NCBI GenBank assembly: GCA_938085105.1 | Contig: CALKGK010000066.1 | Span: 1 to 43,672 of the forward strand | Direction: 5' to 3' | DNA: 43,672 bases | Origin: an uncultured Flavobacteriales bacterium | Lineage (GTDB): Bacteria; Bacteroidota; Bacteroidia; Flavobacteriales_D; Sanyastnellaceae | The notes under the pieces: generated by a model | The model's input: the letters and a program-made list of their open reading frames with translations, nothing else | What the model was told of the DNA's origin: nothing | Databases searched by the model: none | In this document: in pieces, positions 19,801 through 37,921 of the stretch | Numbering within the stretch: the first letter of the stretch is position 1 | How the letters are laid out: each line of letters begins with the position of its first letter | Position numbers and translations under genes: made by a program

Positions 19801-22552
19801 CTTTTGCCTTGATGAGCTGGTTAATATCCTCAACCCCGTTGCCGAAGGAAGCTACAGCAGCAACATTAACAACTGCCTTTACGGAGTTTCTTTTTTCAAT
19901 GAAACCCAAGGAACCATCAGCAATACACAATGGGATTACGGCGACAATCAAACGGGTGGCGGCTTGAACGTTTTCCACACCTATCCTTTGGGAGTTTTTG
20001 ACGTGGAATTGGTGGTGATCAACGATCTCGGTTGTAGTGATACCTTGATTTTCCCCGACATTTTAAATCTCAGCGACGCCGTGGGGCAATTCACAAGTAC
20101 CCTTGACCCCGTGTCATGTGCACCATTCCAAGCCTCGTTTGATGCCTTCAACCCGAGTGATAACAGTTTTACTTATTTCTGGGAATTTGATGACGGTTCT
20201 GGAGACGGGCTGAACAACACTCAAACCAGTCACACTTACACTGAGCCAGGGACCTATTGTCCGTCGCTGATCATGGAAGATCAGAACGGTTGTCCGGTTT
20301 TGATTCAATGTGAAACCCCCTTCACTGTTGAAGAGTTTACCATTGATACCAGCACCCCAGAAAGCGTTTGCTTCGGCCAAAACAGTTTGATAACTGCAAG
20401 CGGAGCCACCTCATACGCATGGTCCGACAACACCAATGTAACTGAACTCGACCCAACAACCTGGCAAGTGTCCTTGCCCAACAGTCAAACCTTGAGTCTT
20501 ACCGGATTCTTCGAAGATTGTCAAAACACTGTTGAATTTGACTTTGAAATCTTCGACTTGCCAGAGGCAGAAATTCTTCTCGACCCAGCTTACTGCTTTG
20601 ATTCAGGAGAATTTCTCTTGGATGATTTTACACAGAGCAACGCTTTGGGATCAGAAACCTTTACTGTTGAAGGAGCGGAAAACCCCATTTTCTCGACTGC
20701 TTTGACACCAAATCAGGAGTATGAAGTGATTTATACCATCGAAGACCTGAACGCTTGTGTGAACGCAGATACGCTAGCAGTTTTCATCCACTCCCTCCCA
20801 GAAGTGAGCCTAGCTCCGATGAATGACTTCTGCTTTGGAGACCCTAGTGAGGTACTTCAAGGTGGTTTGCCCTTGGGTGGAGAATATACCCTGAACGGGT
20901 TTCCAATCGGTGACTTTGACCCCAATGATGGAGTCGGTTCATATCAGTTGAATTACAACTACACCGATCAAAACGCCTGCTCTGCTTCAGACAGCGTGCT
21001 TTTTGAAGTGCATCCCCTCCCAGAGCCTAGCTTTATTGCTGAAGATGTTTGTTTTGGAAACGCCGCCACTTTTGAAAACACCTCAAGCATTCCCAACGGA
21101 AGCATTGCTGGGAGTTTGTGGGAGTTTGGAAACGGGGCGAGCAGTAATCTATTCAGCCCTGCAACTGTCAACTACCTCACTCCTGGCGAGTTCAGCGTGA
21201 GCTTAAACCTCACTTCCAACGAGGGTTGCAACGCAGAACTAACTCAAAACATCACCATTTTGGCTAGTCCTGAAGTGGACTTTCTTTTGGAAGATGCCTG
21301 TTTGGATGAACTCTTCAATTTCACCAACACTACCGAAGTGCAAGGGGGAACAGCCGTGGAATGGGAATGGATGATTGATGGAGAAACCGTATCACTCACC
21401 GAAAACCTCTCCAACTATCAATTTGGCGGGAGTGGCCCGCATGAAATCACACTTATTGTAGGTTCAAACGAAGGTTGCAGCAACTCACTTGAGCAAACAG
21501 TGAACGTATTTGACCTACCAGAAATTGATCTTGTTTTGGATGACGCCTGTGCGGGAGTGCCAATTTCAATTTTCAACAATGCAAGTGTGAGCGACGGAAG
21601 CATCGATGATTATGCATGGAGTGTTGATGGCGTGCTCGCTTCCACAGAAGAAAACTATACAGGTACTTTCGACAATGCCGGAGAGGTGGACATTGAATTA
21701 GGTGTGCTCAGTAATCACGGTTGTGGAGCAGTAGCAAGCGAGTCCTTCACCGTTTTTGCCGCACCCCTGATTGACTTCACCCAAAGCGAAAGCATTGGTT
21801 GCAGTTTGTCTACCGTTGAACTTGAAGACAATTCAAGTGCGGAGGGAAGCGCTGTGGTAAGCTGGGAATGGCTCATGAACGGCACATTCATCTCTGGAAT
21901 GAATACTGCAAGCTTCAACCCACAAGACCCAGGAATGTACGACCTCCAGCTCACGGTTGGAACACCCCAAGGATGCTTTTCGGACACTCTCGTCCAAAAC
22001 GCCATTGAACTATTTCCGAGTCCTACCGCAGATTATTCCCTGTCTTCGGAAGACGTTACCATGCTCCTTCCTGAAGTGAGCATTACGGATGAAACCATAG
22101 GAGCAGTAAATCAAATCTTCACCTTCCCAAGTGGAAATTCCTTCAACGCTGAAAGCATCGACTACACCTTCCTGGAGCCCGGAAACTATGAATTCCAATT
22201 GTGGGTTGAAAATGAATATGGCTGCGCAGACAGCATTCAAATCAACATCCCCGTTGATCAAGTTATTTTGATCCACGTGCCCAATGCTTTCACTCCAGAT
22301 GGTGACGGAGTAAATGAAGTCTTCGTTCCCGTTTTAAACGACATTGAAGTGGACGACTACCGTTTTGAGATCTACAACCGTTGGGGGGAAGTCATCTTCG
22401 CCAGTGAAACGCCTGGAGAAGGTTGGAATGGAAATGTAAAAGGAGGTTCGCACTTTGCCATGGATGGCGTTTACACCTATCGCCTTGTGCTTCGAGAAAC
22501 TCGCCTTTTGGAAGAGCGTGAACTCTTTGGCCACGTCACCTTGATACGTTAG
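16883..22552 (+). CDS. Giant PKD-repeat protein with T9SS type B sorting domain
   Basis: A 1889-residue secreted protein. The signal peptide is LQRILATILLLIPFGVFAQ. Next come roughly 16 PKD-like Ig repeats of 80-100 residues, recognised by W-x-F-G-(D/N)-G strands (WSWDFGNG, STWDFDDG, LIWDFGDGSP, YAWDFGDP, TQWDYGDN, YFWEFDDGSGDG, LWEFGNGAS) and closing PG.Y.V.L motifs. Most repeats carry a pair of cysteines (for example EGCYPLCVAF), suggesting one disulphide each. Residues 1799-1889 (VPNAFTPDGDGVNEVF ... IYNRWGEVIF ... GVYTYRLVL) form the CHU_C gliding-motility-associated sorting domain, so the protein should be exported by the type IX system and held on or released from the cell surface. The start is TTG; a second TTG is at 16898 and no ATG exists before the signal peptide. 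Probably adhesin-like. Confidence 0.88.
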   Translation: MITSPLQRILATILLLIPFGVFAQLSIEANTQNGCAPFGVILSVNTPDPASINNYSWSITYPDNSIETATSAEYVDILSIPGQYSVSLSINNGAESITETSFITVYDLPNVNFEVDVQEGCYPLCVAFSDLTTTQGNQIVEWSWDFGNGATSSEQNPSYCYQENGVYSPILSIEDEYGCYNDVSIPGLINVLDAFPEVGFTPSTYADCNPPAFISFENTSSGNGSLTSTWDFDDGFTTSTVDASDVDHTFNAVGLYEVCLHVEEDNGCAADSCVVIDVFPAPAPSFDVSENLVCAGTEITFTSTTSPVPSNLSWDIDGDGISESTDPSFTYVMGNEGTFNPTLTASYSPGCTASIQDQEIVVLEELIANFSADNNFACESPLEVNFANLSSGPGIISYEWQVNGVPVSTDFDLNYTFTQSGSYDISLLATNDDGCTSELVMTDFININSPSINFNLPAIVCTEEVVLLENVNVDSYDPVQNLDWDFNEDGIVDVSGTSPSYIYSDPGEYVVSVIVTTVSGCVAQVESTATILVQPDAQAEILSGPIIGCPGEPVEFCVETVEGLNYNWNFGDNTGWSLIGFPDMCIQHDYQDTGYFDISLSVYNQGCGNLLVLEDYLYISGPVAQFDAIEDCSNITNVTFVDNSIDADELIWDFGDGSPLVYNDPNPQHQYATEGNYTVTLTVNSDQIDCPDITTMNLNLVTEDIALTFVPDEGCPGLNVFMNSPDQTQYEVWNIDFGNGTVLDATWSEPLNRWQVYTTVDGVTTFSQFSFNANFIPFINYSTGGFFDITITAVDWSGCETITVYEDAIEIYNDFTFADFDINVLEDCDELRLEFVPTGDFLDIWEWELTDGTVSNDLVLEHVFTAPYDTVFGATFTAEDDFGCGSTVSHVIDVVPPPIPSFEALNAPTCWGDELSLTNTSVGENLTYAWDFGDPNSGADNLSDLENPTHVYNENGLFTVCLSATNTNACTQSFCLDELVNILNPVAEGSYSSNINNCLYGVSFFNETQGTISNTQWDYGDNQTGGGLNVFHTYPLGVFDVELVVINDLGCSDTLIFPDILNLSDAVGQFTSTLDPVSCAPFQASFDAFNPSDNSFTYFWEFDDGSGDGLNNTQTSHTYTEPGTYCPSLIMEDQNGCPVLIQCETPFTVEEFTIDTSTPESVCFGQNSLITASGATSYAWSDNTNVTELDPTTWQVSLPNSQTLSLTGFFEDCQNTVEFDFEIFDLPEAEILLDPAYCFDSGEFLLDDFTQSNALGSETFTVEGAENPIFSTALTPNQEYEVIYTIEDLNACVNADTLAVFIHSLPEVSLAPMNDFCFGDPSEVLQGGLPLGGEYTLNGFPIGDFDPNDGVGSYQLNYNYTDQNACSASDSVLFEVHPLPEPSFIAEDVCFGNAATFENTSSIPNGSIAGSLWEFGNGASSNLFSPATVNYLTPGEFSVSLNLTSNEGCNAELTQNITILASPEVDFLLEDACLDELFNFTNTTEVQGGTAVEWEWMIDGETVSLTENLSNYQFGGSGPHEITLIVGSNEGCSNSLEQTVNVFDLPEIDLVLDDACAGVPISIFNNASVSDGSIDDYAWSVDGVLASTEENYTGTFDNAGEVDIELGVLSNHGCGAVASESFTVFAAPLIDFTQSESIGCSLSTVELEDNSSAEGSAVVSWEWLMNGTFISGMNTASFNPQDPGMYDLQLTVGTPQGCFSDTLVQNAIELFPSPTADYSLSSEDVTMLLPEVSITDETIGAVNQIFTFPSGNSFNAESIDYTFLEPGNYEFQLWVENEYGCADSIQINIPVDQVILIHVPNAFTPDGDGVNEVFVPVLNDIEVDDYRFEIYNRWGEVIFASETPGEGWNGNVKGGSHFAMDGVYTYRLVLRETRLLEERELFGHVTLIR

Positions 22553-26919: not shown

Positions 26920-27177
26920 TTATTTGTCGATGGAACCCACTACTCGCTTCATGAAAGCGTTCATGGCTTCCTTTTTCGGAGTACCGTTCGCGATTTCCTT
27001 GTTGACTTCAATAGCACCGTACATGTTGGAAAGGAGCTCTCCAATCACATCAAGTTCTTCGTCTTTCAAGGATTCCAATTCCGTGAGGTGCTCGAGCACA
27101 TCGATGGCTTCTACTAAGTAGTCTTCATCGGTTTTCTCAAGGAATTCGTGCAAGTGTTTAATTACTGGTAACCTCAT
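26920..27177 (-). CDS. DUF6952 family protein
   Basis: An 85-residue, all-helical, acidic protein (MRLPVIKHLHEFLEKTDEDYLVEAIDVLEHLTELESLKDEELDVIGELLSNMYGAIEV). It matches the Bacteroidota family I know as DUF6952, recognisable from LPVIKHL at the start, the SLKDEELDVIGEL..NMYGA core and the VVGSIDK end. No cysteine is present, so it is not itself a redox carrier. Its ATG lies 20 nt inside the end of the thioredoxin gene, making cotranslation likely. The peroxiredoxin-thioredoxin-DUF6952 order suggests an accessory role in peroxide defence, which is inference from context only. Confidence 0.8.
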   Translation of the reverse strand: MRLPVIKHLHEFLEKTDEDYLVEAIDVLEHLTELESLKDEELDVIGELLSNMYGAIEVNKEIANGTPKKEAMNAFMKRVVGSIDK

Positions 27178-27472
27178 CGATAAAAGATTTCAAGACCTCC
27201 GTCTTATTGGTTTGAATTTGCTTAGCGAGTTCTCCTCCGCTGAATGCAGCGAAAGTGGGAAGGTTATCTACATTTGCGAGCTGACGAGCGTTTGGGAACT
27301 TCTCGGCATCCACAATGAGGAAGGTAACGTCTTCATGCTCACTGGCCATTTTTTTAAATTTTGGCTTCATAATTCTACAGTTTCCACACCAGCCGGCGCT
27401 ATACTGTACAACTACTTTTGCATTTTCTTGAACCAATTGGTCCAAGTTGTCTTGTTCTAGTTCTTTCAACAT
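27158..27472 (-). CDS. Thioredoxin-family protein with CGNC active site
   Basis: A 104-residue cytosolic thioredoxin fold. The active site reads SAGWCGNCRIMKPKF, with redox cysteines C29 and C32 and asparagine where classical thioredoxin has proline (CGPC). The cis-proline loop appears as VDNLPTFAAFSGGE, and the second strand as VTFLIVDAEKFPNARQLANV. The CGNC variation should alter the redox potential. The gene lies 13 nt downstream of the peroxiredoxin gene, so the most direct role is reducing that peroxiredoxin; this is inferred from the operon. Confidence 0.9.
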   Translation of the reverse strand: MLKELEQDNLDQLVQENAKVVVQYSAGWCGNCRIMKPKFKKMASEHEDVTFLIVDAEKFPNARQLANVDNLPTFAAFSGGELAKQIQTNKTEVLKSFIDEVTSN

Positions 27473-27485
27473 AACTTTCTGTTTT

Positions 27486-28121
27486 TTAGTGTGATGCCAA
27501 GTAGCTCGCTACTCCATCGCGGTTGGCAGACATTGCGTCTTTGCCTTCTTCCCAGTTTGCTGGACAAACCTCACCGTTTTTCTGAACGTGAGTGTAAGCA
27601 TCGATCAAACGGATGAATTCATTTACGTTACGACCCAAAGGCATGTGGTTTACTCCTTCGTGGAATACGGTTCCTTCCTCATCAATCAAGTAGGTTGCGC
27701 GGTAGGTTACGTAGTCTCCAGTGATGATATCTGCATTGAGTTCTTCGTTGTATTCAACAGCGCTCACGTCCAAGATATTCAAAATGGAAGCCAAGTTGCG
27801 GTTGCTATCAGCAATCAAGTTATAGGTAACTCCTTCGATACCACCGTTGTCTTTTGGCGTATTCAACCAAGCAAAGTGAACCTCAGCAGTGTCGCAAGAA
27901 GCGCCAATGACCATGGTGTTTCTCTTTTCGAATTCAGCCAAAGCAGCTTGAAAAGCGTGCAATTCTGTTGGACAAACAAAGGTGAAATCCTTTGGGTACC
28001 AGAAAAGCAATACTTTCTTTTTGTTCTTTACTGCTTCTTCGAGAACGTTGATCTTAATGGTATCTCCCATTTCGTTCATGGCAGCTACTTCTAAGTTAGG
28101 GAATTTCTTTCCTGTGTACAT
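27486..28121 (-). CDS. Typical 2-Cys peroxiredoxin (AhpC/Prx1 type)
   Basis: A 211-residue cytosolic peroxidase reducing hydrogen peroxide and organic hydroperoxides. The peroxidatic cysteine is C50 in PKDFTFVCPTEL and the resolving cysteine is C186 in NGEVCPANW, the arrangement of typical 2-Cys enzymes that form decamers. The conserved arginine lies in VTYRATYLIDEEG. The C-terminal extension (EEGKDAMSANRDGVASYLASH) is somewhat longer than in E. coli AhpC. No AhpF is encoded nearby; the adjacent thioredoxin probably regenerates the enzyme. It diverges from oxyR across a 108-nt gap with a -7 element for each side. Confidence 0.95.
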   Translation of the reverse strand: MYTGKKFPNLEVAAMNEMGDTIKINVLEEAVKNKKKVLLFWYPKDFTFVCPTELHAFQAALAEFEKRNTMVIGASCDTAEVHFAWLNTPKDNGGIEGVTYNLIADSNRNLASILNILDVSAVEYNEELNADIITGDYVTYRATYLIDEEGTVFHEGVNHMPLGRNVNEFIRLIDAYTHVQKNGEVCPANWEEGKDAMSANRDGVASYLASH

Positions 28122-28159
28122 GTGCTTTTTTTTTGCGTGTTTAACTTACAATGATGACA

Positions 28160-28167
28160 CAAAATTA
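28160..28167 (-). promoter_or_regulatory. Candidate -7 promoter element for the peroxiredoxin operon
   Basis: On the minus strand TAATTTTG is an exact TAnnTTTG match, 38 nt before the peroxiredoxin ATG. No TTTG at the standard distance is seen, as expected if an activator such as OxyR replaces the -33 contact. Confidence 0.5.
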
Positions 28168-28203
28168 AAGGACTTGTTTCATCGAACCTAATTATACTAT
28201 TTA

Positions 28204-28211
28204 TACCTTTG
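28204..28211 (+). promoter_or_regulatory. Candidate -7 promoter element for oxyR
   Basis: TACCTTTG matches TAnnTTTG exactly and lies 18 nt before the ATG at 28230. The TTG at 28209 falls inside this element, which argues against that codon as the oxyR start. Confidence 0.5.
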
Positions 28212-28229
28212 TTAGACAATGTCTATGAG

Positions 28230-29168
28230 ATGAACCTAAATCAATTGAAATATGTTATGGCCGTGCATGAGCACCGTCATTTTGGTAGAGCTGCAGAGCA
28301 TTGCGACGTCACCCAAGCCACCTTGAGCGCCATGATTAAAAAACTCGAAGCCGAGTTGGGAGTGGTTTTGTTTGACCGAGACAAGCAGCCTACCATCATT
28401 ACCGAGCACGGCTTGAAGGTGGTGAAAATCGCGAAAGAAATGCTGATGAAGCAACAGGAGCTTCTCGACATCAATGGACAGGAACACCCTGTATTGAGAG
28501 GAAAATTAAAAATCGGAGTTATTCCCACCGTGGCCAATGCCCTATTGCCCTTGATTTTGCCCTCTTTGTTAGAGAACTATCCCGATTTGGAGCTCAGCAT
28601 TGCCGAAATCACCACAGAGGAAATCATCCATCGCTTGAAGGAAGACCGCATCGACCTTGGTATTCTGGCGACTCCTTTGGAAGAGGAAGAATTGGAGGAG
28701 AACATCCTCTATTACGAAACCATGATGGTTTACGGAGTAAAGGACCCAAAGAAGAAATTCATCGCCCCGAAAGATCTGTACGATGAAAAAGTTTGGCTTT
28801 TGGAAGAAGGCAATTGTTTTCGGAACCAAAGCATGACCATTTGTAACATTCAAGAGAAGAGCAACGTTCCCCAAAACCTGCATTTTGAAGGAAGTTCTTT
28901 TGATACTCTTCTCAATTTGAGCGATCATTTTGGAGGAATCACCTTGGTTCCTGAGCTTTACCATCAGCTGATGCCAGAAAACAAACAAGCACAAACTCGG
29001 ATGTTCAACGCTCCGTATCCCGTGCGTGAAATCAGTGCTGTTTTCTATCGCCCCTTCGCTAAAAAAACCAGCATTGACCTCCTTTCAGCGCACATTCAAA
29101 GCATCATCACTCCTCACCTATTGAGTGCGAAACTTCCGAAGAAAGACCTCTCCATTATCGGGATTTAA
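28230..29168 (+). CDS. oxyR: OxyR-type LysR regulator
   Basis: A 312-residue transcription factor. Residues 1-60 form the LysR winged helix-turn-helix (MNLNQLKYVMAVHEHRHFGRAAEHCDVTQATLSAMIKKLEAELG), followed by a linker helix and a periplasmic-binding-protein-like sensor domain. The peroxide-sensing cysteines are C196 and C205 in LLEEGNCFRNQSMTIC, at the same nine-residue spacing as C199 and C208 of E. coli OxyR, so the regulator should sense H2O2 through a disulphide. The FGGITLVPELY and FYRP segments near the end are also OxyR-like. It diverges from the peroxiredoxin operon, its expected target. Confidence 0.92.
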   Translation: MNLNQLKYVMAVHEHRHFGRAAEHCDVTQATLSAMIKKLEAELGVVLFDRDKQPTIITEHGLKVVKIAKEMLMKQQELLDINGQEHPVLRGKLKIGVIPTVANALLPLILPSLLENYPDLELSIAEITTEEIIHRLKEDRIDLGILATPLEEEELEENILYYETMMVYGVKDPKKKFIAPKDLYDEKVWLLEEGNCFRNQSMTICNIQEKSNVPQNLHFEGSSFDTLLNLSDHFGGITLVPELYHQLMPENKQAQTRMFNAPYPVREISAVFYRPFAKKTSIDLLSAHIQSIITPHLLSAKLPKKDLSIIGI

Positions 29169-29173
29169 CTTTG
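29166..29173 (+). promoter_or_regulatory. Candidate -7 element downstream of oxyR
   Basis: TAACTTTG matches TAnnTTTG and overlaps the oxyR stop codon. A second, one-mismatch copy, CATCTTTG, lies at 29221-29228, 8 nt before the ATG of the next gene. Either could drive the DUF2064 gene. Confidence 0.35.
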
Positions 29174-29236: not shown

Positions 29237-29929
29237 ATGAATCGAGCCTCTACAGCCATATTGTTCTTTAGCCGAAGCGTTGGTGCCGAAGCAAAAGCCA
29301 AGTCTTGGGTCAAATCAAAAAATGGCGCACAGCTCAATCGCAACATTTCGAAAGAACTGATTCAAAGCACTCTGGAAACACTCCAAAGTAGCGGGCTCGA
29401 AGTACATTATTTCGATGAAACCCTTCAACAAGGGCATTCCTTTGGAGAGCGGTTTTCGAATGCCTTTGCCGCTTTGTTTGATCTCGGTTACGAACGTGTA
29501 ATTGCCCTTGGGAACGACACCCTTGAACTTGAACAAATTCAATGGTCTGAGATCCTCACCGCTTTGGACGAGGGGAAAGCCGTTCTTGGTCCGAACAACC
29601 GCGGAGGTGCTTACCTGATTGCATTGAACCGAAATCAATTCAACAAATCTCAATTTGAGGCCCTCCCCTGGAAACAATCCAGCCTTTTTGAAGCCTTGAT
29701 GAGTGCTGCACCTTCCCAACACTTACTGGGAACTTGTCTTGACTTGAACCTTCTTTCAGATCTACTGGTCGCATATAAAACAGCGGATTTAAGGTCCTCT
29801 TTATTGTTCGTTTTGCAAGCCCTCTTTGGATCGAAATTGAAATCGCTCCAGGCTCGGGTTCCTTCGATGGAAAGTGACGCTAATGTGCGAATCAAAGTAC
29901 TTCGCGGTCCGCCAGCGCTCTGTGCTTAA
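29237..29929 (+). CDS. DUF2064 / TIGR04282-type glycosyltransferase-like protein
   Basis: A 230-residue protein. Its nucleotide-sugar-transferase-like core shows STAILFFSRSVGAEAKAKSW near the start, QQGHSFGERFSNAFAALFDLGYERVIALGNDTLEL in the middle (a G-D-D/N-S/T nucleotide-binding strand) and AVLGPNNRGGAYLIALNR, the counterpart of the family's VLGPA.DGG(Y/V)YL motif. Families of this type were named for co-occurrence with a selenodomain radical SAM protein, but the usual partner is not visible here. Substrate unknown. The frame is open 22 codons further upstream to 29171; the ATG at 29237 lines up with the family start. The last 60 residues are not clearly conserved. It ends 72 nt before the TonB-receptor gene. 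Confidence 0.75.
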   Translation: MNRASTAILFFSRSVGAEAKAKSWVKSKNGAQLNRNISKELIQSTLETLQSSGLEVHYFDETLQQGHSFGERFSNAFAALFDLGYERVIALGNDTLELEQIQWSEILTALDEGKAVLGPNNRGGAYLIALNRNQFNKSQFEALPWKQSSLFEALMSAAPSQHLLGTCLDLNLLSDLLVAYKTADLRSSLLFVLQALFGSKLKSLQARVPSMESDANVRIKVLRGPPALCA

Positions 29930-29966: not shown

Positions 29967-29988
29967 GAGTAGGGAAGACTTCCTACTC
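29967..29988 (+). promoter_or_regulatory. Perfect 7-bp dyad upstream of the TonB receptor gene, candidate operator
   Basis: GAGTAGG (29967-29973) and CCTACTC (29982-29988) are exact reverse complements around an 8-nt centre GAAGACTT. The second arm ends 1 nt before TATATTTC (29990-29997), a one-mismatch -7 element 4 nt before the ATG at 30002. No T run follows, so it is unlikely to be a terminator. The position, immediately upstream of the -7 box, suits a repressor-binding site. Confidence 0.5.
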
Positions 29989-30001: not shown

Positions 30002-32992
30002 ATGAAACGCATCCTACTTGCCGTTATATCGGTACTATTCATGGGTTCTGCATTGGCCCAAGCCTCGCTTGAAATCTCCCTATTCAAAGCCAACAACGAA
30101 GCCATTCCCTTTTTAGGAATTCGAGTGAGTAACCCCTCCACCGGATACACTCTTGAAATCGCCAGTGATGAAAATGGCAAAGTTCAACTGCACGGACTAT
30201 CGACCTCGGGTCGCTATCGAGTGGAAGTGCTCCCAAGCGCCTTTTATCATCCCTTCACCCAAGAGAAAATCCAACTGATTTCGGGGCAAACCGTGAGCAT
30301 TGGCATCACCCTTCAGGAGAAAACGCAAAGCCTTGCTACTGCCGTTGTTGGGGGCGAAAATTACGTGAGCATCAACTCCATCAATGCGGAAGTGGCCTCT
30401 ACTTTGGACGCTCTTGAAATCGAAGCTCTGCCCATTGAAGGAAGGGACATTACCCGCGCTTTGTACCGTTTGCCTAACATTACTCAAGCCACCGGTTTTT
30501 ACCCTGAAGCACCCAACATCGCCATCAATGGAGCCAATCCGCTTTATACCAACTATCAAATTGATGGGATGGACAACAATGAAAATTTTCTTGGCGGACA
30601 GCGTTTCGCGATGCCTGTTGGATTCACTCAAAACATCACTGCACTCACCAACAACTTCAGTGCAGAGCACGGTTTGAGTTCCAATGGAATCATCAACATC
30701 ACCACAAAATCGGGGACCAATGAAAATACTGGAGAAGTGTTTTACATGAGCAGACCCGGCGCGGTGATTGATTCTCCTAGTGAGTTTGCCCTCCGAGATC
30801 TCTCTGGAAACCAAGTGAAAGATGGATTTCAACGGCACCAAGTAGGTTTTGGACTTGGAGGCGCCATCACCCAGAACAAAACTTTTTACTACCTCAATGT
30901 TGAGCACACGCTTGACCTTAAAGACAACCTCTTGAACGTACCTCAATTGGGCATCAATGAAACCGTTCGTGGACGCAATACCTTCACCTATCTCTCCGGA
31001 AAAATTGATCATCGATGGAGTGAGCGTTTTGAAAGTTCTTTGCGCGTGAATACCGGATTGTCCAGCATCGAGCGTCAAGGAGGCGGTTTGGAAGGTGGAG
31101 TGAACTTTCCTTCTGCGGGAAACACTCAAGCCAGAAATGCGGTTAACGTTGCGCTGAAGAACACCTTGAGAAGAACGAATTTCATTTACGAGAGCAACTT
31201 TTTTTACGGGCGGTTCCGATGGAATTACGCCACTCCAGAAGATGAAAACAGTCCGAATGTAAGTGTGCTGGACCCTCAAGGCTTGAACATGGCTGTATTG
31301 GGGCATCCGGGTTACGTTTTCGATGTAACGGAAAACACCCAAGTTGTTCAGCAGAAGCTCACTTTTTTGCGCGAAAACCACTGCATAAAGGCTGGGGCGC
31401 AAATCAAATCGTCCAGCTTTGAACTTTTTGGTGGTGGAAACCCCAACGGAAGCTATACCGTTCAGTTGAATGAAAATCAGCTCGCCTCTTTGCAGAACAA
31501 CAATCCCGGAACAGGGCTCCTCCCACAGGACCTTCCCTCCGATGTTGAGGTACTGAATTACAGTGTGGAATTGAGACCCAACTCATTTGAAGATCGGCAA
31601 AACATCTTCAGCATTTACTTGGAAGATCAATGGACCATTCATCCGCGCTTGAACGCCAACATCGGGCTTCGTTATGACTACGACAACCTTTCCAAAGGTG
31701 GAGGTGATGAAGGAGACATGAACAACATTGCACCGCGCTTGAGTTTGAATTACAGCATCAACGACAAGAGCAGCGTGCGTGTTGGATACGGAATGTATTA
31801 CGATAAAATCCTTTACGCCGTTCACAGCGATGCTTTGCAATTCAACTCCAACAGTGATGGCTACAAAGCGCAATTGAGCGCTTTGATTGAGCAAGGAATT
31901 CTTCCTGAAGACAGCAACCTTGAAGCCATCACTAATGAAGGAAATCTCAGTGCCAACGATCCAAACGCCGCCTATCTTGAAGGCCCGCTTGCTTCCGATC
32001 TTCAAAACCAAAGGGACCAGCTTTTTCAGAATGAACTGCGTATTCTTAACCCCAATGGCTATGAGAACCCATACAGTCATCAATTCATGCTTGGGTACCA
32101 GCGGAAAGTGGATGAGAAACTTTCTTTTTATGTTGACGTGATGCACAACCGTTCGTTCAATCTCTTCCGTTTGCGCAATCTCAATGCTCCTGAGGCCTAT
32201 TCCATCAACCCCGATGACGTTGTGGTGCAAAGTCAAGCCGATGCCGACGCGAGCAGGCCCGTGCCCATCTTTTCTGACAGCCAAGGCAACTTCACCATTC
32301 TTGGTGGAGATACACTTCGAGACATTGCACGAAATGTTGTCATGACCGAAAGTGCTGGTCGTTCGAACTACTACGCTTTGAACTTCACTCTTCAAAAAGA
32401 GCGCGGGGAAGACCCATACGCCTTCCGTCTAATGTACACCTTGTCTTACCTCGAAAACAACACGGAGGACATCAACTTTAGGGCAATGGACGGCAATGAT
32501 TTTGAAGCGGAATGGGGTCCTTCCATCAATGATAGAACCCACCTCATCAATGGACTCTTTTCTTATTTCCCTACGAAACGACTCAGCGTTCATTTGAGCG
32601 CGCTTTTGCAAAGTGGTCAGCCCATCAACCGCATTCCAGACGCCAGCATTTACGGCACCACCGATCTTAACGGAGATGGAAGAGCCTTTGGGGATGCCTA
32701 TGTTGGCAACAGCGACCGAGCGCCAGGGGAAGAGCGAAACAGCGATCGTTTGCCTTGGTCCAACACCTTTGACCTGAACCTCTTCTACACCATTCCTTTC
32801 GGGGAAAAATCGAAAATGGAGTTTGGCGCTTATGTGTTCAACCTTTTCAATGCTGAAAACTTGAGCGGCTATTCGAACAACGCCACTCAGAGCAATCAAA
32901 TCCAAGTTGGTCCGGCAAGCTCAGGTGTATTTGTACAACGAAATGCAGCACCTCCAAGACAGTTTCAATTCTCTGCAAGATTCCTCTTCTAA
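30002..32992 (+). CDS. TonB-dependent outer-membrane receptor
   Basis: A 996-residue outer-membrane receptor with signal peptide MKRILLAVISVLFMGSALAQ. Residues 22-105 form a carboxypeptidase-regulatory-like beta sandwich (LGIRVSNPSTGYTLEIASDENGKVQLHGL). A plug domain follows at about 125-235, including IEGRDITRALYRLPNITQATGFYPEAPNIAINGANPLYTNYQIDGMD and NNFSAEHGLSSNGIINITTKSGTNENTGEVFY. The rest is a 22-stranded-type barrel ending in the aromatic C-terminal strand PPRQFQFSARFLF. It imports a ligand using TonB energy. The absence of a SusD-like partner argues against a glycan utilisation locus. The stop and the next ATG share one nucleotide (TAATG), so receptor and ABC transporter genes are one operon. 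Candidate operator at 29967-29988. Confidence 0.9.
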   Translation: MKRILLAVISVLFMGSALAQASLEISLFKANNEAIPFLGIRVSNPSTGYTLEIASDENGKVQLHGLSTSGRYRVEVLPSAFYHPFTQEKIQLISGQTVSIGITLQEKTQSLATAVVGGENYVSINSINAEVASTLDALEIEALPIEGRDITRALYRLPNITQATGFYPEAPNIAINGANPLYTNYQIDGMDNNENFLGGQRFAMPVGFTQNITALTNNFSAEHGLSSNGIINITTKSGTNENTGEVFYMSRPGAVIDSPSEFALRDLSGNQVKDGFQRHQVGFGLGGAITQNKTFYYLNVEHTLDLKDNLLNVPQLGINETVRGRNTFTYLSGKIDHRWSERFESSLRVNTGLSSIERQGGGLEGGVNFPSAGNTQARNAVNVALKNTLRRTNFIYESNFFYGRFRWNYATPEDENSPNVSVLDPQGLNMAVLGHPGYVFDVTENTQVVQQKLTFLRENHCIKAGAQIKSSSFELFGGGNPNGSYTVQLNENQLASLQNNNPGTGLLPQDLPSDVEVLNYSVELRPNSFEDRQNIFSIYLEDQWTIHPRLNANIGLRYDYDNLSKGGGDEGDMNNIAPRLSLNYSINDKSSVRVGYGMYYDKILYAVHSDALQFNSNSDGYKAQLSALIEQGILPEDSNLEAITNEGNLSANDPNAAYLEGPLASDLQNQRDQLFQNELRILNPNGYENPYSHQFMLGYQRKVDEKLSFYVDVMHNRSFNLFRLRNLNAPEAYSINPDDVVVQSQADADASRPVPIFSDSQGNFTILGGDTLRDIARNVVMTESAGRSNYYALNFTLQKERGEDPYAFRLMYTLSYLENNTEDINFRAMDGNDFEAEWGPSINDRTHLINGLFSYFPTKRLSVHLSALLQSGQPINRIPDASIYGTTDLNGDGRAFGDAYVGNSDRAPGEERNSDRLPWSNTFDLNLFYTIPFGEKSKMEFGAYVFNLFNAENLSGYSNNATQSNQIQVGPASSGVFVQRNAAPPRQFQFSARFLF

Positions 32993-34215
32993 TGAAAAAC
33001 ACATCATTTTATCCCCTACTTTTCATTTTTAGCGCCTTGCTTCTTCTGGGCTGTTCAAACCCTCCAAAAACCCCAGCTGCAGTGGAGTACCAAAATTGGG
33101 AAGAACAAGTTTCCGCTGTTCAAGGAGAGCAGCTTACTTTGATGATGTGGCCAGGAGATCCGCTCATCAACCAATACATGCAGAATTACGTTCAGCCTGA
33201 AGTAAAGCAGCGATTTGGAATTGAATTGGAGATTGTACCAGGGCAAGGAAACCAAATTGTGAGCACTTTGATGACCGAGTTGGAAGCAAGCAAACAGGAA
33301 AGCGAAGTGGATGTGGTTTGGATCAACGGGGAAACCTTCTATCAACTTCGTCAGATCAAAGCCCTTTACGGACCATTTTCCAAAGACCTTCCTCATTCAA
33401 AATGGGTCCATTGGGAGAGTCCGTTCATTGGAACCGATTTTCAACAAGCAGTAGAAGGCTATGAGTGTCCGTGGGGAAATGTGCAAATGACCCTCATTTA
33501 CGATAGCGCTCGCGTTCAGGAAGTTCCCATGGACCTCTCCGCATTGAGTGCTTGGGTGAAGGATCATCCTGGCAAGTTCACCCTTGGAAACAACTTCACG
33601 GGCATGACCCTCCTCAAAGCTTGGCTCATTGATTTTGCGGGTGGTGGTGATGCATTGAACGGTCCTTTTGATGACGCGAAATACAAAGCTGCCAGCCGGC
33701 TGTTGTGGAAGTACATCAATGAAAACAAAGCCTACTTTTGGAACGAAGGGAAGAGCTTTCCCAACGACCTTGCCGAGCAGCACCGCTTGTTTGCCAATGG
33801 GGAGCTTGATTTCACCCTGAGCAATAACGACAGCGAGGTAGATAACAAGATTGCTCAAGGCCTATTTCCAGCAAGTGCTCGTGCTTATGTTCCCAATTAT
33901 GGAAGCATCCAGAATTCACACTACATGGGCATTACTGCATTGAGTGCGAAAAAAGCAGCAGCGGAAGTCTTCATCAATTTTCTCATCTCCCCAGAAGCGC
34001 AACTGAAGAAAATGAACCCCACCGTATGGGGCGATGGAACCGTGCTGAACACAGAGCTCTTGCCCAATGAATGGAAGCAACAATTTGAAAACATTCCGGG
34101 AAGAAAGCACGCTCCGCAGCGGAAAGAAATTCAGCAAAAAGCCCTCATGGAGCCGGACCCTGAATACATGATTCGTTTGTTTGAAGATTTTAGAACACAA
34201 GTGATTGAAAGGTGA
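32992..34215 (+). CDS. ABC transporter substrate-binding lipoprotein, YnjB-like
   Basis: A 407-residue lipoprotein (signal YPLLFIFSALLLLGC, lipidated cysteine near residue 21). The fold is that of a periplasmic binding protein of the ferric/thiamine/polyamine superfamily. The run DVVWINGETFYQLRQIKALYGPFSKDLPHSKWV and the EGYECPWGNVQMTLIYDSARV segment resemble E. coli YnjB (VDLVWINGENF..L....LLYGPF and SPWG..Q..FIYDSA) by memory. YnjB's ligand is unknown, so the ligand here cannot be named. It likely receives the ligand from the outer-membrane receptor upstream and passes it to the permeases downstream; its stop overlaps the first permease start (GTGA). Confidence 0.85.
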   Translation: MKNTSFYPLLFIFSALLLLGCSNPPKTPAAVEYQNWEEQVSAVQGEQLTLMMWPGDPLINQYMQNYVQPEVKQRFGIELEIVPGQGNQIVSTLMTELEASKQESEVDVVWINGETFYQLRQIKALYGPFSKDLPHSKWVHWESPFIGTDFQQAVEGYECPWGNVQMTLIYDSARVQEVPMDLSALSAWVKDHPGKFTLGNNFTGMTLLKAWLIDFAGGGDALNGPFDDAKYKAASRLLWKYINENKAYFWNEGKSFPNDLAEQHRLFANGELDFTLSNNDSEVDNKIAQGLFPASARAYVPNYGSIQNSHYMGITALSAKKAAAEVFINFLISPEAQLKKMNPTVWGDGTVLNTELLPNEWKQQFENIPGRKHAPQRKEIQQKALMEPDPEYMIRLFEDFRTQVIER

Positions 34216-35060
34216 TCAGAGGGAAGACGAACATATTTTTGTTTTCGTTCTTGGTGGTTTCCTTGCTGCCGTTGGCGCTTGGTTTAGTGTATTCTTTGGG
34301 CTATAGTTTTGGTCTGTTTGGCCTGATGAACGATGGCTTTACCCTAGAACATTGGCAAAAGCTAAGTTCGTCTAAAGATGCTTGGAGCAGCCTCATCTAC
34401 ACCCTCACACTTTCTTTGGTTTCCGTGGTATTATTGGTGGTGCTTGCTGCATTTTCGGCTAAAATGTTGCTTGAGAAGTCATCCAAAAAAGGGGTGCTCC
34501 CGCTGCTCATCGTTCCGCTTTTGTTCGCGCCCATTGTGGCGGGTTTTGCGTGGTATTATTTGTTGAGTCCAGCCGGAATACTGAGCCGACTAGCACATTC
34601 CATCGGACTTATTTCGGGTCTAGAGAGCTTCCCCCGATTGGTGAATGACGATTGGAGCATTGGGATCATTGTGGTGCACCTGTTTTTGGTTTTGCCCTTG
34701 TTTACGCTTCTCTTCATCGCTCAAGCAAAAGCCATGCGACTGAAGGAAATGGATGCGCTGGCTCGCAACTTTGGTGGGAACGCCTACAAGCGGTTCTTCC
34801 AACTCTGGGTTCCCGCTTTGGTTCACCGTTCGAAACTGCTCATTGCGCTTTATGCCATCTTCTTCATGGGAAGTTATGAAGTGCCCCTGATCTTGGGAAA
34901 AAGTAGTCCGCGCACTTTAAGCATCTTCATCACTGAAAAGCTCACCAAGTTTCAGCTCAGCGACGTTCCTTTGGGGCATTGTATGGCTATGGTTTACAGC
35001 TTTGGAATTTTGTTGTTGCTACAGCTTTTTCTTCGAAACGTTCAAAGCCTTCGCCCATGA
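34212..35060 (+). CDS. ABC transporter permease, first half
   Basis: A 282-residue inner-membrane permease starting at GTG within the overlap with the preceding stop. About six membrane helices are visible (IFLFSFLVVSLLPLALGLVY, LIYTLTLSLVSVVLLVVLAAF, VLPLLIVPLLFAPIVAGFAWYYL, IGIIVVHLFLVLPLFTLLFIA, LLIALYAIFFMGSYEVPLIL, MVYSFGILLLLQLFL). The EAA-type cytoplasmic loop contacting the ATPase appears as AMRLKEMDALARNFGGNAYKRFFQLWVPAL. In E. coli YnjC the two permease halves are fused; here they are two separate genes. Confidence 0.88.
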   Translation: MIRGKTNIFLFSFLVVSLLPLALGLVYSLGYSFGLFGLMNDGFTLEHWQKLSSSKDAWSSLIYTLTLSLVSVVLLVVLAAFSAKMLLEKSSKKGVLPLLIVPLLFAPIVAGFAWYYLLSPAGILSRLAHSIGLISGLESFPRLVNDDWSIGIIVVHLFLVLPLFTLLFIAQAKAMRLKEMDALARNFGGNAYKRFFQLWVPALVHRSKLLIALYAIFFMGSYEVPLILGKSSPRTLSIFITEKLTKFQLSDVPLGHCMAMVYSFGILLLLQLFLRNVQSLRP

Positions 35061-35866
35061 CTCGACTAACGAAAATGGGCTGGTACCTCTTTGCACTTTT
35101 GCCCGTAATTACCCTTTTCTATTTGTCCCTCGTGCAGTCTTGGACCTACCCTAGCCTTTTTCGAGCGGAATGGAGTTGGCAACAGTGGTCTGCTTTATTT
35201 GAAGCACACCCATCGCTTTCTTCGGCCCTAGCGAACAGCTTGATTTTGGCCTTCGTTATGGGCAGTTTTGGACTTCTCTTCGGCTTCGTGATTGCAAAGG
35301 AATTGGCCTTCCAACGCACGAAGAAAGCTTGGCTTCAATTCGCCTTTTATCCTTATTTAATTGCACCCGTTGTGCTTGGGGCCATGCTTCAATATTACTT
35401 TGTATTGTGGGGTTGGAGCGCTTCTTTTTTCGGGGTAATGATTGCTCAGGCACTTTTTATTCTGCCCTTTTCGGTGTTGATCATGAGTAATTTCTGGACC
35501 GCAGAAACAAAGGAGTATTTGCATGTTGGTGCCAGTTTGGGTGGCAGTCCGAAAGCCCTTAGAAAAACACTCCTCTATCCCCTCGCCAAACCTTGGATGC
35601 TTTTGACCTTTGTGCAGTGCTTCCTGATGTCTTGGTTTGAATATGGAATGACCCAACTCGTTGGAATTGGAAAAGTGCAAACGCTCACCGTTTTAAGCAT
35701 GAAGTTTTTAAAAGAAGCCAATCCACACCCCGCGGCTCTTGCCGGATTGTTGATGATTCTCCCACTTGCGCTGCTGTTCTCGATTGTTCTGCTCGCATTT
35801 AAAAACAAGCAGCAACTCCGTTTTGACCGAGTTGTGGAACACACAAATGAAGCTCCAAAACCATGA
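35057..35866 (+). CDS. ABC transporter permease, second half
   Basis: A 269-residue inner-membrane permease. The ATG at 35057 overlaps the upstream stop (ATGA). Helices include LFALLPVITLFYLSLVQ, LSSALANSLILAFVMGSFGLLFGFVIA, WLQFAFYPYLIAPVVLGAMLQYYF, FFGVMIAQALFILPFSVLIM, LLTFVQCFLMSWFEYGMTQLV and AALAGLLMILPLALLFSIVLLAF. The ATPase-coupling loop is TKEYLHVGASLGGSPKALRKTLLYPLAKPW. The protein is the partner of the permease at 34212-35060, and the stop overlaps the ATPase start (ATGA). An in-frame start further upstream at 34979 lies inside the previous gene and is rejected. Confidence 0.88.
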   Translation: MTRLTKMGWYLFALLPVITLFYLSLVQSWTYPSLFRAEWSWQQWSALFEAHPSLSSALANSLILAFVMGSFGLLFGFVIAKELAFQRTKKAWLQFAFYPYLIAPVVLGAMLQYYFVLWGWSASFFGVMIAQALFILPFSVLIMSNFWTAETKEYLHVGASLGGSPKALRKTLLYPLAKPWMLLTFVQCFLMSWFEYGMTQLVGIGKVQTLTVLSMKFLKEANPHPAALAGLLMILPLALLFSIVLLAFKNKQQLRFDRVVEHTNEAPKP

Positions 35867-36606
35867 TTAGAGTTAGCCAGTGGAATAAAAAATACGGGGA
35901 GAAAGAAGTCTTCAGCGATGTGGCATTTGAGCTTGAAAAGAAGCGCACTTTGGCCATTCTGGGAGAAAGTGGTTGCGGAAAAAGTACCCTCCTCAAAACC
36001 ATTGCTGGACTGGAAGATCCGGACAGTGGTGTGTTTCTGCTTGAGGGTGAAAATGCCTTTAAACAAGCCGTACACCAACGTGGGGTGGTTTACATGAGTC
36101 AAGAAGCGCTGCTCTTCCCCCACTTGAATGTAGCCGAAAATCTCGGTTTTGGCTTGAAGATGCGCAAGGAGAAAGCCTCCGAAATTCGGAAGAAAGTTGA
36201 AGCCATTGCAGAAGAGCTTGACATCTCCGATCAATTGGAGAAGTATCCTGCGGCGCTTTCGGGCGGACAAAAGCAGCGGGTTAATTTTGGGAGAGCTTTA
36301 TTGACACAACCAAAAGTATTGTTGCTGGACGAGCCCTTTGCCAGTTTGGACAGCAATACCCGCAAGAAAATGCAAACACTCTTCCTTGAGTGTGCAGAAA
36401 AATGGGAGCTCACTACCCTGTTTGTTACCCACGAGCTGAAAGAAGCCTTGCTCGTTGGGAACCATTGGAGCATCATGCGCAATGGACGATTGAAGGTATT
36501 TGAAAGTAAAGCCGATTTTATGGCTGATGAACATTCGGGTGCTCGGGAAGAAATGCACTTCTGGACGAGCATCTCACAAGAAAAAAGAAGAAATGAAGGA
36601 CTTTGA
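35863..36606 (+). CDS. ABC transporter ATP-binding subunit, YnjD-like
   Basis: A 247-residue ATPase that powers the transporter. Walker A is GESGCGKST at residues 34-42, the Q-loop is in VVYMSQEALLFPHLNVAENLGFGLKM, the ABC signature is LSGGQKQRVNFGRALL, Walker B is KVLLLDEPFASLD and the switch histidine is in LFVTHELKEAL. The C-terminus has no long regulatory domain of the CysA or PotA kind. It overlaps the upstream permease gene by 4 nt and the radical SAM gene by 14 nt. Confidence 0.93.
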   Translation: MIRVSQWNKKYGEKEVFSDVAFELEKKRTLAILGESGCGKSTLLKTIAGLEDPDSGVFLLEGENAFKQAVHQRGVVYMSQEALLFPHLNVAENLGFGLKMRKEKASEIRKKVEAIAEELDISDQLEKYPAALSGGQKQRVNFGRALLTQPKVLLLDEPFASLDSNTRKKMQTLFLECAEKWELTTLFVTHELKEALLVGNHWSIMRNGRLKVFESKADFMADEHSGAREEMHFWTSISQEKRRNEGL

Positions 36607-37516
36607 ACACATCGAATCCATCTATTGGGTATTTACTCAGCTTTGCAACGACAAATGCGACCATTGCTACAATATGAGCGGACCACAGGGCAGCAGAATC
36701 TCCGAAGAAGACTGTCTGGCCATCATCGAAAACATGCCCAAAAAAGTAGACCGAATGATCCTCAGCGGTGGGGAGCCCCTTGCCGAGAAAAAGAAGCTCT
36801 ACCTCATTTTGGACCAGCTCAAAGCCAAATATGGCGATGAAACCCAAATCATGCTTCAAACCAACGGAGATTTGCTCACCGGTGAAATCTTGGACCAACT
36901 CATTGCAAAGGGAGTGACCCGTTTTGACATTGCAAGCATTGACCGCTACCATAAAAAAGCTGGGGGAAGGCTCATGGAATTGGCCGATCTTTTTGAATCT
37001 CGTGGAGTGAATGGCGATGAGAAAGATCCCTTGGTGAAGAAGGACAACTACCTGCACAGTTATCCACTCAGTTGGGGGTATTGGGGAGCGAGCGAAGAAA
37101 TGTGGCTTGGCGGGAATTGGCCCCGTGGAAGAGCCTTTCAAAAGAACATCTGGCTGAAAAATCCCGATCATAATTTTTGCTCCATCTTGTCTGGAGGAAT
37201 TGGCTTTTTGAGCGGGGGTGATGAAATTCCGCAGGAAATCTCCATTCAGCTTTGGAAGATCAACCCCTGTTGCCCGGGAACGAAAGAAGCCCTTGGGGAT
37301 GCTCGAAGTGAGCGTGTTTCGGAAGTTCTTGCTGCATTGTCTGGCAACCCCATTTTTGAAAAAATCAATGAAGGGAACCCTTTAGCTATGGGAGAAAGCA
37401 TCGGGGTGAGTGAAGAACACGCCAAAAAACGTTGTGGTGAACTCAAAAGCGTTTGCCTCTGGTGTGATGAGTTTTTTGATCAACACTTCGATCTCAAAAC
37501 CATGGCTAAGAAGTAA
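36593..37516 (+). CDS. Radical SAM protein of unrecognised subfamily
   Basis: A 307-residue iron-sulphur enzyme. The SAM-binding [4Fe-4S] cluster motif CNDKCDHCYN supplies C18, C22 and C25. The SAM-contacting GGEP motif occurs in RMILSGGEPLAEKKK, and LQTNGDLLTGEILDQLIAKGVTRFDIASID follows the radical SAM barrel pattern. The C-terminal half is cysteine-rich (NFCSIL, NPCCPGT, RCGELKSVCLWC), suggestive of an extra iron-sulphur cluster as in SPASM or Twitch domains, without exact correspondence. I recognise no named subfamily. Because its ATG lies inside the ATPase gene, it is translated with the transporter, so a likely role is processing the imported ligand or making a product dependent on it. 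The start at 36500 suggested by the longer frame is rejected. Confidence 0.85.
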   Translation: MKDFEHIESIYWVFTQLCNDKCDHCYNMSGPQGSRISEEDCLAIIENMPKKVDRMILSGGEPLAEKKKLYLILDQLKAKYGDETQIMLQTNGDLLTGEILDQLIAKGVTRFDIASIDRYHKKAGGRLMELADLFESRGVNGDEKDPLVKKDNYLHSYPLSWGYWGASEEMWLGGNWPRGRAFQKNIWLKNPDHNFCSILSGGIGFLSGGDEIPQEISIQLWKINPCCPGTKEALGDARSERVSEVLAALSGNPIFEKINEGNPLAMGESIGVSEEHAKKRCGELKSVCLWCDEFFDQHFDLKTMAKK

Positions 37517-37552
37517 TCCTTCAGCCCGAAAAACAACACAGCAAAACACCAA

Positions 37553-37569
37553 CAAAAGCCACCCTTTTG
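37553..37569 (+). repeat. Short perfect inverted repeat between rSAM and CxxC genes
   Basis: CAAAAG, 5-nt loop, CTTTTG. It ends 10 nt before the ATG at 37580. With no T run after it, it could shape the translation start of the next gene or be incidental. Confidence 0.35.
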
Positions 37570-37579
37570 GGATCGATCA

Positions 37580-37921
37580 ATGCTCTATTTTATCTACAAT
37601 GCCAAAGCTGGGAAACTGAATGCATACCTCGACATGATGCATAAAATTGTATCGCCCAAAACCTACCCCTGCCACTTGTGTGACATTACCCATGGGGTGT
37701 TTAAAATTAGGCCTGTTTGGGATGCATTCGTTAAGGAATACGCAGAAGAGCTGGTGTTTTTGCACAGCGATGAATGGAAAGCCCACAAAGCCTACCGAGA
37801 TGAACAATTGCCCGCAGTTTTTGAAGTGAAAGGAAAGGAAACAGCATTGGCGCTCTCTGCCGAGGACATGGAAAAAATGGGATTGGATGAGCTTATGGCT
37901 TGGGTGAAAGAACGAAAGTAG
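37580..37921 (+). CDS. Small CxxC protein of unknown function
   Basis: A 113-residue cytosolic protein. It opens with LYFIYNAKAGKLNAYLDMMHKIVSPKTYPCHLCDITHGVFKIRPVWDAFV. This matches a small family that I recall in diverse bacteria with the pattern YNA..G..NA..D..HK..SP.TYPC.LC..T.G, and which has no assigned function. The CHLC pair at about residues 31-34 could bind a metal or cycle between dithiol and disulphide. The C-terminus is charged, with the LSAEDMEKMGLDELMAWVKERK helix. It follows the radical SAM gene by 63 nt with no terminator between, so it may belong to the same operon. Confidence 0.7.
   Translation: MLYFIYNAKAGKLNAYLDMMHKIVSPKTYPCHLCDITHGVFKIRPVWDAFVKEYAEELVFLHSDEWKAHKAYRDEQLPAVFEVKGKETALALSAEDMEKMGLDELMAWVKERK

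Follow-up and report, generated by a model that had tools for sequence, protein, structure and literature searches.

The window analysed here, a stretch of 43,672 nucleotides from an uncultured Flavobacteriales bacterium, carries a tight run of plus-strand genes in which a transporter is joined to a radical SAM enzyme. A TonB-dependent receptor (30002–32992; PF25183 185.8 bits, Plug 24.6 bits against a cut-off of 23.9) is followed by a YnjB-family binding lipoprotein (32992–34215), two ABC permeases (34212–35060, with a GTG start, and 35057–35866), an ABC ATPase (35863–36606; PF00005 120 bits) and the radical SAM enzyme (36593–37516), with successive overlaps of 1, 4, 4, 4 and 14 nt. The gene for a small CxxC protein (37580–37921), for which profile searches gave no family above cut-off, lies 63 nt further. 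The initial annotation had placed these seven genes on one strand between 30002 and 37921 with the same overlaps and gap, and the open reading frames and the sequence bear this out. The permeases are recognised chiefly by their conserved position: their best matches (modB_ABC, 32.7 bits, for the first; PRK15050, 45 bits, for the second and the highest score against any named permease) are weak, every one lying far under its cut-off. A DUF2064 gene, starting at 29171 (TTG) or likelier at an ATG at 29237 and running to 29929, ends 72 nt 5' of the receptor gene on the same strand. Its product matches the wider family PF09837 (57.7 bits, cut-off 25.8) and scores 65.7 bits against a cut-off of 134 for the TIGR04282 transferase, which marks it, as judged from these profiles, as a distant TIGR04282 homologue. 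Directly 5' of the receptor gene lies a hairpin (29967–29988), which was rejected as a conserved operator because none of 55 other regions inspected upstream of receptor genes shows an evident counterpart; unrelated palindromes occur in some of them. An Rfam scan of the window gave no match, and promoter-like sites were not in excess (5 versus a shuffle mean of 8.6).

The genes of this set travel together. Neighbours were counted by tblastn, superseding ORF-based counts, at 81 radical-SAM loci, 64 of which extend 8.5 kb or more upstream; the 81 include loci truncated by contig ends, the 64 do not. The binding protein is encoded near the radical SAM gene in 56 of the 64 loci and the receptor in 50, so the neighbourhood that the initial annotation asked to see conserved elsewhere is indeed kept. 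The gene order is conserved beyond chance: among 60 relatives, five other genomes carry the radical SAM gene, of which four retain the order and one breaks off at a contig end, and most loci of the wide scan retain it too. The DUF2064 gene, found near the radical SAM gene in 34/64 loci, is on that ground a member of the conserved set. The operon as initially drawn therefore stands for its core genes; it missed the DUF2064 gene and gave too much weight to the CxxC gene, a loose partner present near the radical SAM gene in only 12/81 loci. SusC/SusD-like genes, named by eye, adjoin some loci, and in one locus (L082) a siderophore-receptor-like gene lies 3' of the radical SAM gene. The gene set appears scattered across bacteria yet strongly conserved. 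We recognised no description of it in the open-licence literature, judged mostly from listings, with most subscription papers outside that scope.

The suggested resemblance of the binding lipoprotein to YnjB proved to be family membership, with 358.4 bits against a curated cut-off of 203 (NF008633/PRK11622), and the order of binding protein, permease and ATPase is that of E. coli YnjBCD. To our knowledge, the ligand of YnjB is not established to date. The company of these genes differs from that in the YnjBCD clusters: none of the classic ynj partners (TVP38/TMEM64, FAD oxidoreductase, rhodanese, CDP-alcohol phosphatidyltransferase) is found among the ten proteins encoded between 28224 and 40731, and a TonB receptor, the DUF2064 protein and the radical SAM enzyme stand in their place. 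By comparison, among eight plasmid-borne relatives inspected out of 72 records (27–36% identity), TVP38/TMEM64 accompanies six and CDP-alcohol phosphatidyltransferase seven, while one, from Deinococcus, has neither. Plasmid searches with the radical SAM, MTAP-like (methylthioadenosine phosphorylase-like) and kinase-like proteins gave no match. The AlphaFold2 model of the binding lipoprotein (pLDDT 93) has a fold of the family that includes large glycoside binders, yet because glycoside, glycerophosphocholine and iron binders all fall within about 3 Z units, the fold names no ligand. Its profile found no relative among solved structures at E 1e-4, and the profiles of two uncharacterised partner families found none at E 0.1.

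The radical SAM protein belongs to the superfamily by its CxxxCxxC motif and its PF04055 score (52.9 bits). It falls into no named family, the best score being 46 bits against a cut-off of 500, whereas membership of a family with a well-defined unrelated role would have counted against the initial annotation. In an alignment of 64 relatives, the motif cysteines (C18, C22, C25) and also C41, C196, C226 and C227 never vary, and C288 and C291 are kept in at least 90% of the sequences; ten matches of 42–51 bits were not taken as relatives. Its predicted fold is nearest to those of EpeE (Z 17.4, 3.5 Å over 254 residues) and BtrN (Z 15.9, 3.4 Å over 220 residues), and it shares with both the CxxxCxxC motif and the presence of further conserved cysteines, although the additional cysteine-ligated cluster in the C-terminal domain that defines Twitch/SPASM enzymes is not itself visible from sequence. 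We thus predict a Twitch-type enzyme. It differs from both in sequence (identity below 20%), in sitting beside a transporter and in belonging to no named family. Of the solved Twitch enzymes the closest, EpeE, epimerises a peptide, which counts against the ribosyl reading proposed below; BtrN is an aminocyclitol dehydrogenase.

It is the sister operons that hint at a substrate. Where the same transporter occurs without a radical SAM gene, the operon has a gene like those for nucleoside phosphorylases or nucleoside hydrolases, in most cases along with a methylthioribose kinase-like (MTRK-like) gene. In a set of 27 genomes that encode the binding protein, the radical SAM enzyme or both (13 with the radical SAM enzyme, 14 without), MTRK-like genes occur in 0/13 genomes with the radical SAM enzyme versus 13/14 without (Fisher p 7e-7), and MTAP-like genes in 0/13 versus 10/14 (Fisher p 1.5e-4), neither value being corrected for relatedness. 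Neither family was found in the window genome. The MTAP-like gene adjoins the transporter in eight loci (L134–L137, L139, L140, L142, L143), and a nucleoside hydrolase gene does so in the four genomes that have no MTAP-like gene (L144–L147); the kinase-like matches are more dispersed, two of the 13 being far from the transporter (G089 and G239, the latter containing a stop) and some others located on a different contig or some 10 kb away (G093, G366). The neighbour counts gave a single MTAP-like match, at L082; this proved to be a true MTIP, encoded on the opposite strand at a distance of about 5 kb, and was excluded from operon content. The enzyme module has been exchanged around a conserved transporter, and no fewer than 7 changes of the radical SAM label are required on the binding-protein tree (both change counts, 8 and 7, exclude 10 rows labelled 'none', which the group table of the same tree includes). 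The modules are not strict alternatives, because loci L085–L088, three of them from Algoriphagus, carry a nucleoside hydrolase, a kinase and a 57–60% identical radical SAM enzyme together. Since the binding proteins of MTAP-like operons (50–58% identical to that of the window) are as close as most of those of the radical-SAM type (51–59%), the two kinds of operon probably import the same ligand; hydrolase-type binding proteins share only 42–47% identity with that of the window.

Because these radical-SAM-free operons carry homologues of nucleoside-cleaving enzymes and of a kinase for 5-substituted ribose, the evidence on the ligand leans toward a ribosyl-type compound. We therefore propose, tentatively and at rather less than even confidence, that these genes constitute one unit for the uptake and processing of a single small, probably ribose-containing compound. 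The TonB receptor would carry this compound over the outer membrane, the YnjB-type lipoprotein would bind it, and the permease pair, with the ATPase, would bring it into the cytoplasm. There the Twitch-type enzyme would act on it first, using radical chemistry to modify the sugar or its substituent. The sister operons may arrive at a comparable stage through a nucleoside phosphorylase- or hydrolase-like enzyme, in most cases together with the methylthioribose kinase-like enzyme. The DUF2064 protein would then use the product, perhaps a 5-substituted ribose-1-phosphate. We infer the direction of transport, the class of ligand and every chemical step of this route, and the radical enzyme may accordingly be read as an alternative first step to the sugar-releasing enzymes of the sister operons. 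The initial annotation had likewise proposed uptake followed by cytoplasmic radical chemistry; the coupling is well supported by conservation, while its suggestion of a scarce ligand or a metal complex is conjecture. A possible parallel is queuosine salvage, where QueK is a nucleoside hydrolase and QueL a radical SAM enzyme (a queuine lyase in Clostridioides difficile), so that both enzyme families act on one imported nucleoside. We know of no role for a kinase or a DUF2064 protein in that pathway.

It is possible, if doubtful, that the same unit takes up a ligand without ribose, such as a cofactor or precursor (thiamine-like, for example), a short peptide or a glycoside built on a different sugar, and modifies it after import. 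The pairing of transporter and radical SAM enzyme is kept whatever the ligand, even where the latter is only 30% identical (L112, L113), the nearest solved folds act on a peptide and an aminocyclitol, and the folds of binding proteins for many classes of ligand match equally well; such a ligand, however, leaves the nucleoside phosphorylase/hydrolase-like and methylthioribose kinase-like genes of the sister operons unexplained. The same genes weigh against uptake of iron, another metal or a metal chelate whose chelator the radical SAM enzyme would release or modify, which we regard as quite unlikely even though a TonB receptor is present, L082 has its siderophore-receptor-like gene, and the binding-protein fold is common to ferric-ion binders (the FbpA/FutA kind), one of which gives a marginal sequence match (E 0.0094); the profile's lack of a solved relative at E 1e-4 also speaks against it. 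Simple import of methylthioadenosine or 5'-deoxyadenosine for methionine salvage would account for enzymes of the MTAP and MTRK superfamilies in the sister operons, yet it is very improbable. Three MTAP-like members score 97–107 bits against a TIGR01694 cut-off of 274.85 and four MTRK-like members 74–120 bits against a TIGR01767 cut-off of 275, and because these scores are so far under the equivalog cut-offs we can only infer the substrates. Moreover, the phosphorylase-like proteins have VVGHK where a true MTIP has VVANW and a PNP has VLTDE, at columns that we take to be base-binding; searches of the window genome found neither family, and methionine salvage leaves the DUF2064 gene unexplained.

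A narrower form of the ribosyl reading would have the unit salvage the product of the ArsS pathway, with genomes either making this compound through ArsS or importing it. The ArsS product, the 'arsenosugar' of NCBIfam, is a 5-deoxy-5-substituted riboside, and the ArsS cassette (TIGR04167, TIGR04282, TIGR04169, NF038099) shares partner families with the transporter operons: a DUF2064/TIGR04282-type protein, a nucleoside phosphorylase, to which a nucleoside phosphorylase-like partner corresponds in the sister operons, and DUF547, found in one transporter operon. In one ArsS cluster (L175), a DUF2064 protein (TIGR04282 188 bits, cut-off 134) is encoded beside a purine nucleoside phosphorylase (PNP 321 bits, cut-off 218), which also favours the broader ribosyl reading. 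The radical SAM enzyme itself is distinct from ArsS, hhalign aligning only 76 core columns, and a search of the window genome for ArsS (TIGR04167, cut-off 300 bits) at E 1e-40 was negative. ArsS is absent from operon-bearing genomes in a phylum sample (0/23 versus 155/395; expected 9.0, p 7e-6 uncorrected), in one family (0/6 versus 51/92, with an 8-to-4 split within one genus) and among the relatives (0/6 versus 27/60). This strong alternation failed in a fourth sample, 50 further radical-SAM genomes drawn from 80 scanned loci (L016 and G031, the latter already counted among the relatives, probably represent one genome), where ArsS occurs in 17 (34%), the base rate. Make-or-import alternation was accordingly kept as a rival only, and an unlikely one, against which the sub-threshold TIGR04282 score of the DUF2064 protein also counts. 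ArsM (NF008823, E 1e-40) was found in none of the six radical-SAM genomes among the 60 relatives, which speaks against this reading and led us to reject a role in arsenic resistance; it occurs in 12/60 relatives overall, 7 over the cut-off, and four of the 80 scanned loci (L017, L029, L030, L076) have an ArsM-like gene in their vicinity.

Returning to the unit for a ribose-containing compound, its most specific version, a dedicated scavenging system for arsenosugar-like 5-deoxy-5-substituted ribosides whose radical SAM enzyme, of a new Twitch type, would accomplish by radical chemistry what a nucleosidase and a sugar kinase do in other lineages, is improbable. That different enzyme modules accompany one transporter nonetheless makes for a simple prediction, namely that binding proteins of the radical-SAM type and of the MTAP-like type bind the same ligand. 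If this ligand is a riboside, the radical SAM enzyme would perform new sugar or nucleoside chemistry, and if it is an organoarsenical, we know of no earlier transporter dedicated to importing compounds of this class.

The seven genes that the initial annotation assigned to 30002-37921 lie there with the overlaps it described, as the open reading frames and the sequence bear out, and the resemblance that it proposed between the binding lipoprotein and YnjB holds in a family scan (358 bits against a curated cut-off of 203). Family scans also recognise a TonB-dependent receptor, an ABC ATPase and a radical SAM protein, and return weak matches to named permease models for both permeases and no family over its cut-off for the small CxxC protein. 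Comparison of loci adds to the set a DUF2064 gene (PF09837, 57.7 bits; TIGR04282, 65.7 of 134 bits), which lies on the same strand and ends 72 nt upstream of the receptor. The gene preceding it encodes a LysR-type regulator, nearest to OxyR models (196 of 329 bits), and adjoins AhpC and thioredoxin genes; we do not count it in the set because it is kept in the same-genus locus L007 and missing from L008-L010. The stretch 26920-29168 holds this OxyR-like regulator, just 5' of the operon, and, in divergent orientation to it, genes for AhpC peroxiredoxin, thioredoxin and DUF6952. Immediately 5' of the receptor gene lies a short palindromic hairpin (29967-29988), with no evident counterpart among 55 other receptor upstream regions. 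An open reading frame of 1889 codons spans 16883-22552.

The unit and its coupling to the radical SAM enzyme are real. The radical SAM protein occurs in 6 of 60 relatives, its own genome included (E 1e-10 or better), and in four of the five others the receptor, binding protein, two permeases, ATPase and radical SAM genes follow in order; in the fifth, a contig end interrupts the locus. A wider scan of named genomes, in which 80 of 130 relatives were kept, gave loci mostly from Bacteroidota, with a few labelled Chlorobiota, Ignavibacteria, Acidobacteriota, Armatimonadota or Proteobacteria. Among these and the window (81 loci), the genes found within 9 kb of the radical SAM gene include the binding protein (65), ATPase (70), receptor (53), DUF2064 (35), CxxC (12) and two partner families, c6 and c7 (24 each); where at least 8.5 kb is available upstream, the first four are present in 56, 58, 50 and 34 of 64 loci. 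The neighbours are thus conserved together; a lack of such conservation was one of the two outcomes that the initial annotation said would refute its inference. Three loci (L015, L033, L079) retain DUF2064, receptor and radical SAM without the binding protein. We found no description of this gene set in the open-licence literature searched. The c6 and c7 proteins are conserved, adjacent and about 210-220 amino acids each (L017:5793-7075, L029, L030, L044, L066, L071, L072, L080 and others); neither protein of L017 matches a Pfam or NCBIfam model at E 0.1, and no solved relative was found with the two profiles. The record of L014 is labelled Thalassovita, an alphaproteobacterium, and the binding protein of its operon groups with those of Bacteroidota; it is possibly a mis-binned contig.

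Nor does the radical SAM protein belong to a family with a well-defined unrelated job, the other refuting outcome: the best named model reaches 46 of 500 bits, and no named family is matched above its cut-off. Across 64 aligned relatives there is no change in the CxxxCxxC cysteines, in C41 and C196 or in the C226-C227 pair. By structure comparison, its AlphaFold2 model (pLDDT 88.6) comes nearest to EpeE (254 residues at 3.5 A, Z 17.4) and BtrN (220 residues at 3.4 A, Z 15.9), each less than 20% identical to it. Its alignment with ArsS (TIGR04167), the radical SAM enzyme of arsenosugar biosynthesis, covers 76 core columns only. A cluster at L111:234-5263 combines a 47% identical radical SAM protein with DUF547, a TIGR04282-like protein (114 of 134 bits), a TrsS-like radical SAM protein (87 of 490) and a TIGR04283 glycosyltransferase (238 of 182); in that genome the binding-protein genes are on a separate contig beside c6 and c7 (L148). 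In L112:9086-13869 and L113 the genes next to that of a more distant radical SAM protein (30% identity) are a binding protein, an ATPase and an ORF similar to permeases, an arrangement that suggests an older pairing of radical SAM and YnjBCD-type genes.

In a sample of 395 genomes of the phylum, 21 have the binding-protein family, and several of the operons concerned lack the radical SAM gene and carry other enzymes. In eight loci (L134-L137, L139, L140, L142, L143) an MTAP-like nucleoside phosphorylase adjoins the transporter, followed downstream in six by a methylthioribose kinase-like gene; DUF2064 and the receptor also occur in L135, L136, L137 and L142. A second kind (L144-L147) has a nucleoside hydrolase beside the transporter, with the kinase-like gene in three of four and DUF2064 in all four. 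Whole-genome counts that ignore relatedness were made for 27 genomes encoding the binding protein, the radical SAM protein or both. Among the 13 with the radical SAM protein, neither the phosphorylase-like nor the kinase-like gene was found, whereas the other 14 yielded the former in 10 and the latter in 13; two of these 13 kinase-like matches (G089, G239) lie far from the transporter, and the one in G239 has an internal stop. Enzymes have probably been exchanged several times, since a tree of 89 binding proteins requires at least seven changes of the radical SAM label and six of the MTAP-like label, four of the latter forced by well supported branches. Four loci, L085-L088, of which three are from Algoriphagus, depart from this pattern: they have both a radical SAM protein (57-60% identical) and the nucleoside hydrolase and kinase. 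In one stretch the phosphorylase-like proteins read VVGHK, true MTIP VVANW and PNP VLTDE; if these columns are base-binding, an ordinary purine is unlikely as the base or aglycone. The fold of the binding protein (model pLDDT 93) is compatible with a glycoside and singles out none: VIA-align places glycoside binders closest, with sulfoquinovosyl-glycerol and glycerophosphocholine binders lower in the list, and the high-ranking Foldseek matches include a Salmonella protein, iron binders and polyamine binders.

The transporter family is also plasmid-borne (72 records). Near it, in eight plasmid loci inspected, are TVP38/TMEM64 (six) and CDP-alcohol phosphatidyltransferase (seven) genes and, in several, FAD oxidoreductase, rhodanese or carboxymuconolactone decarboxylase-like genes; a Deinococcus locus has none of these, and a Pseudoalteromonas locus has DUF547 and a TonB receptor as well. 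A fatty acid hydroxylase/sterol desaturase family gene lies 3' of the transporter genes in Pseudoalteromonas L158, and another directly precedes a 39% identical CxxC protein on a Thiodictyon plasmid (L162:5168-6393).

It is possible that the imported compound is an arsenosugar. PMC12159101 describes adenosylation of arsenic by a radical SAM enzyme in oxo-arsenosugar biosynthesis. Because DUF547, TIGR04282 and nucleoside phosphorylase partners are united in an ArsS cluster, L175 (TIGR04169, 193 of 120 bits; TIGR04282, 188 of 134; PNP, 321 of 218; AsSugarArsM, 569 of 400), we asked whether operon and ArsS alternate. ArsS is missing from operon-bearing genomes in three samples: the phylum (0 of 23 versus 155 of 395 overall; expected 9.0, p 7e-6 uncorrected), one family (0 of 6 versus 51 of 92), which includes a genus whose 12 genomes divide into eight with ArsS and four with the binding protein, and the relatives of the window (0 of 6 with the radical SAM protein versus 27 of 60). 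However, 17 of 50 genomes drawn from the wider radical SAM scan carry ArsS, a share that matches the base rate (p 0.47). Any alternation is at most local, and an arsenosugar keeps only a modest probability. ArsS over its cut-off in 155 of 395 genomes is itself very common for an arsenosugar enzyme, and among the window's relatives ArsM occurs in 10 of the 27 that have ArsS and 2 of the 33 that do not.

The likeliest working scenario, even if we give it somewhat less than an even chance, is that a ribosyl compound is taken up and that the radical enzyme stands in for nucleosidase and kinase. The transporter would import the ribosyl compound, and the radical SAM enzyme would act on it as an alternative to a nucleosidase plus a kinase.
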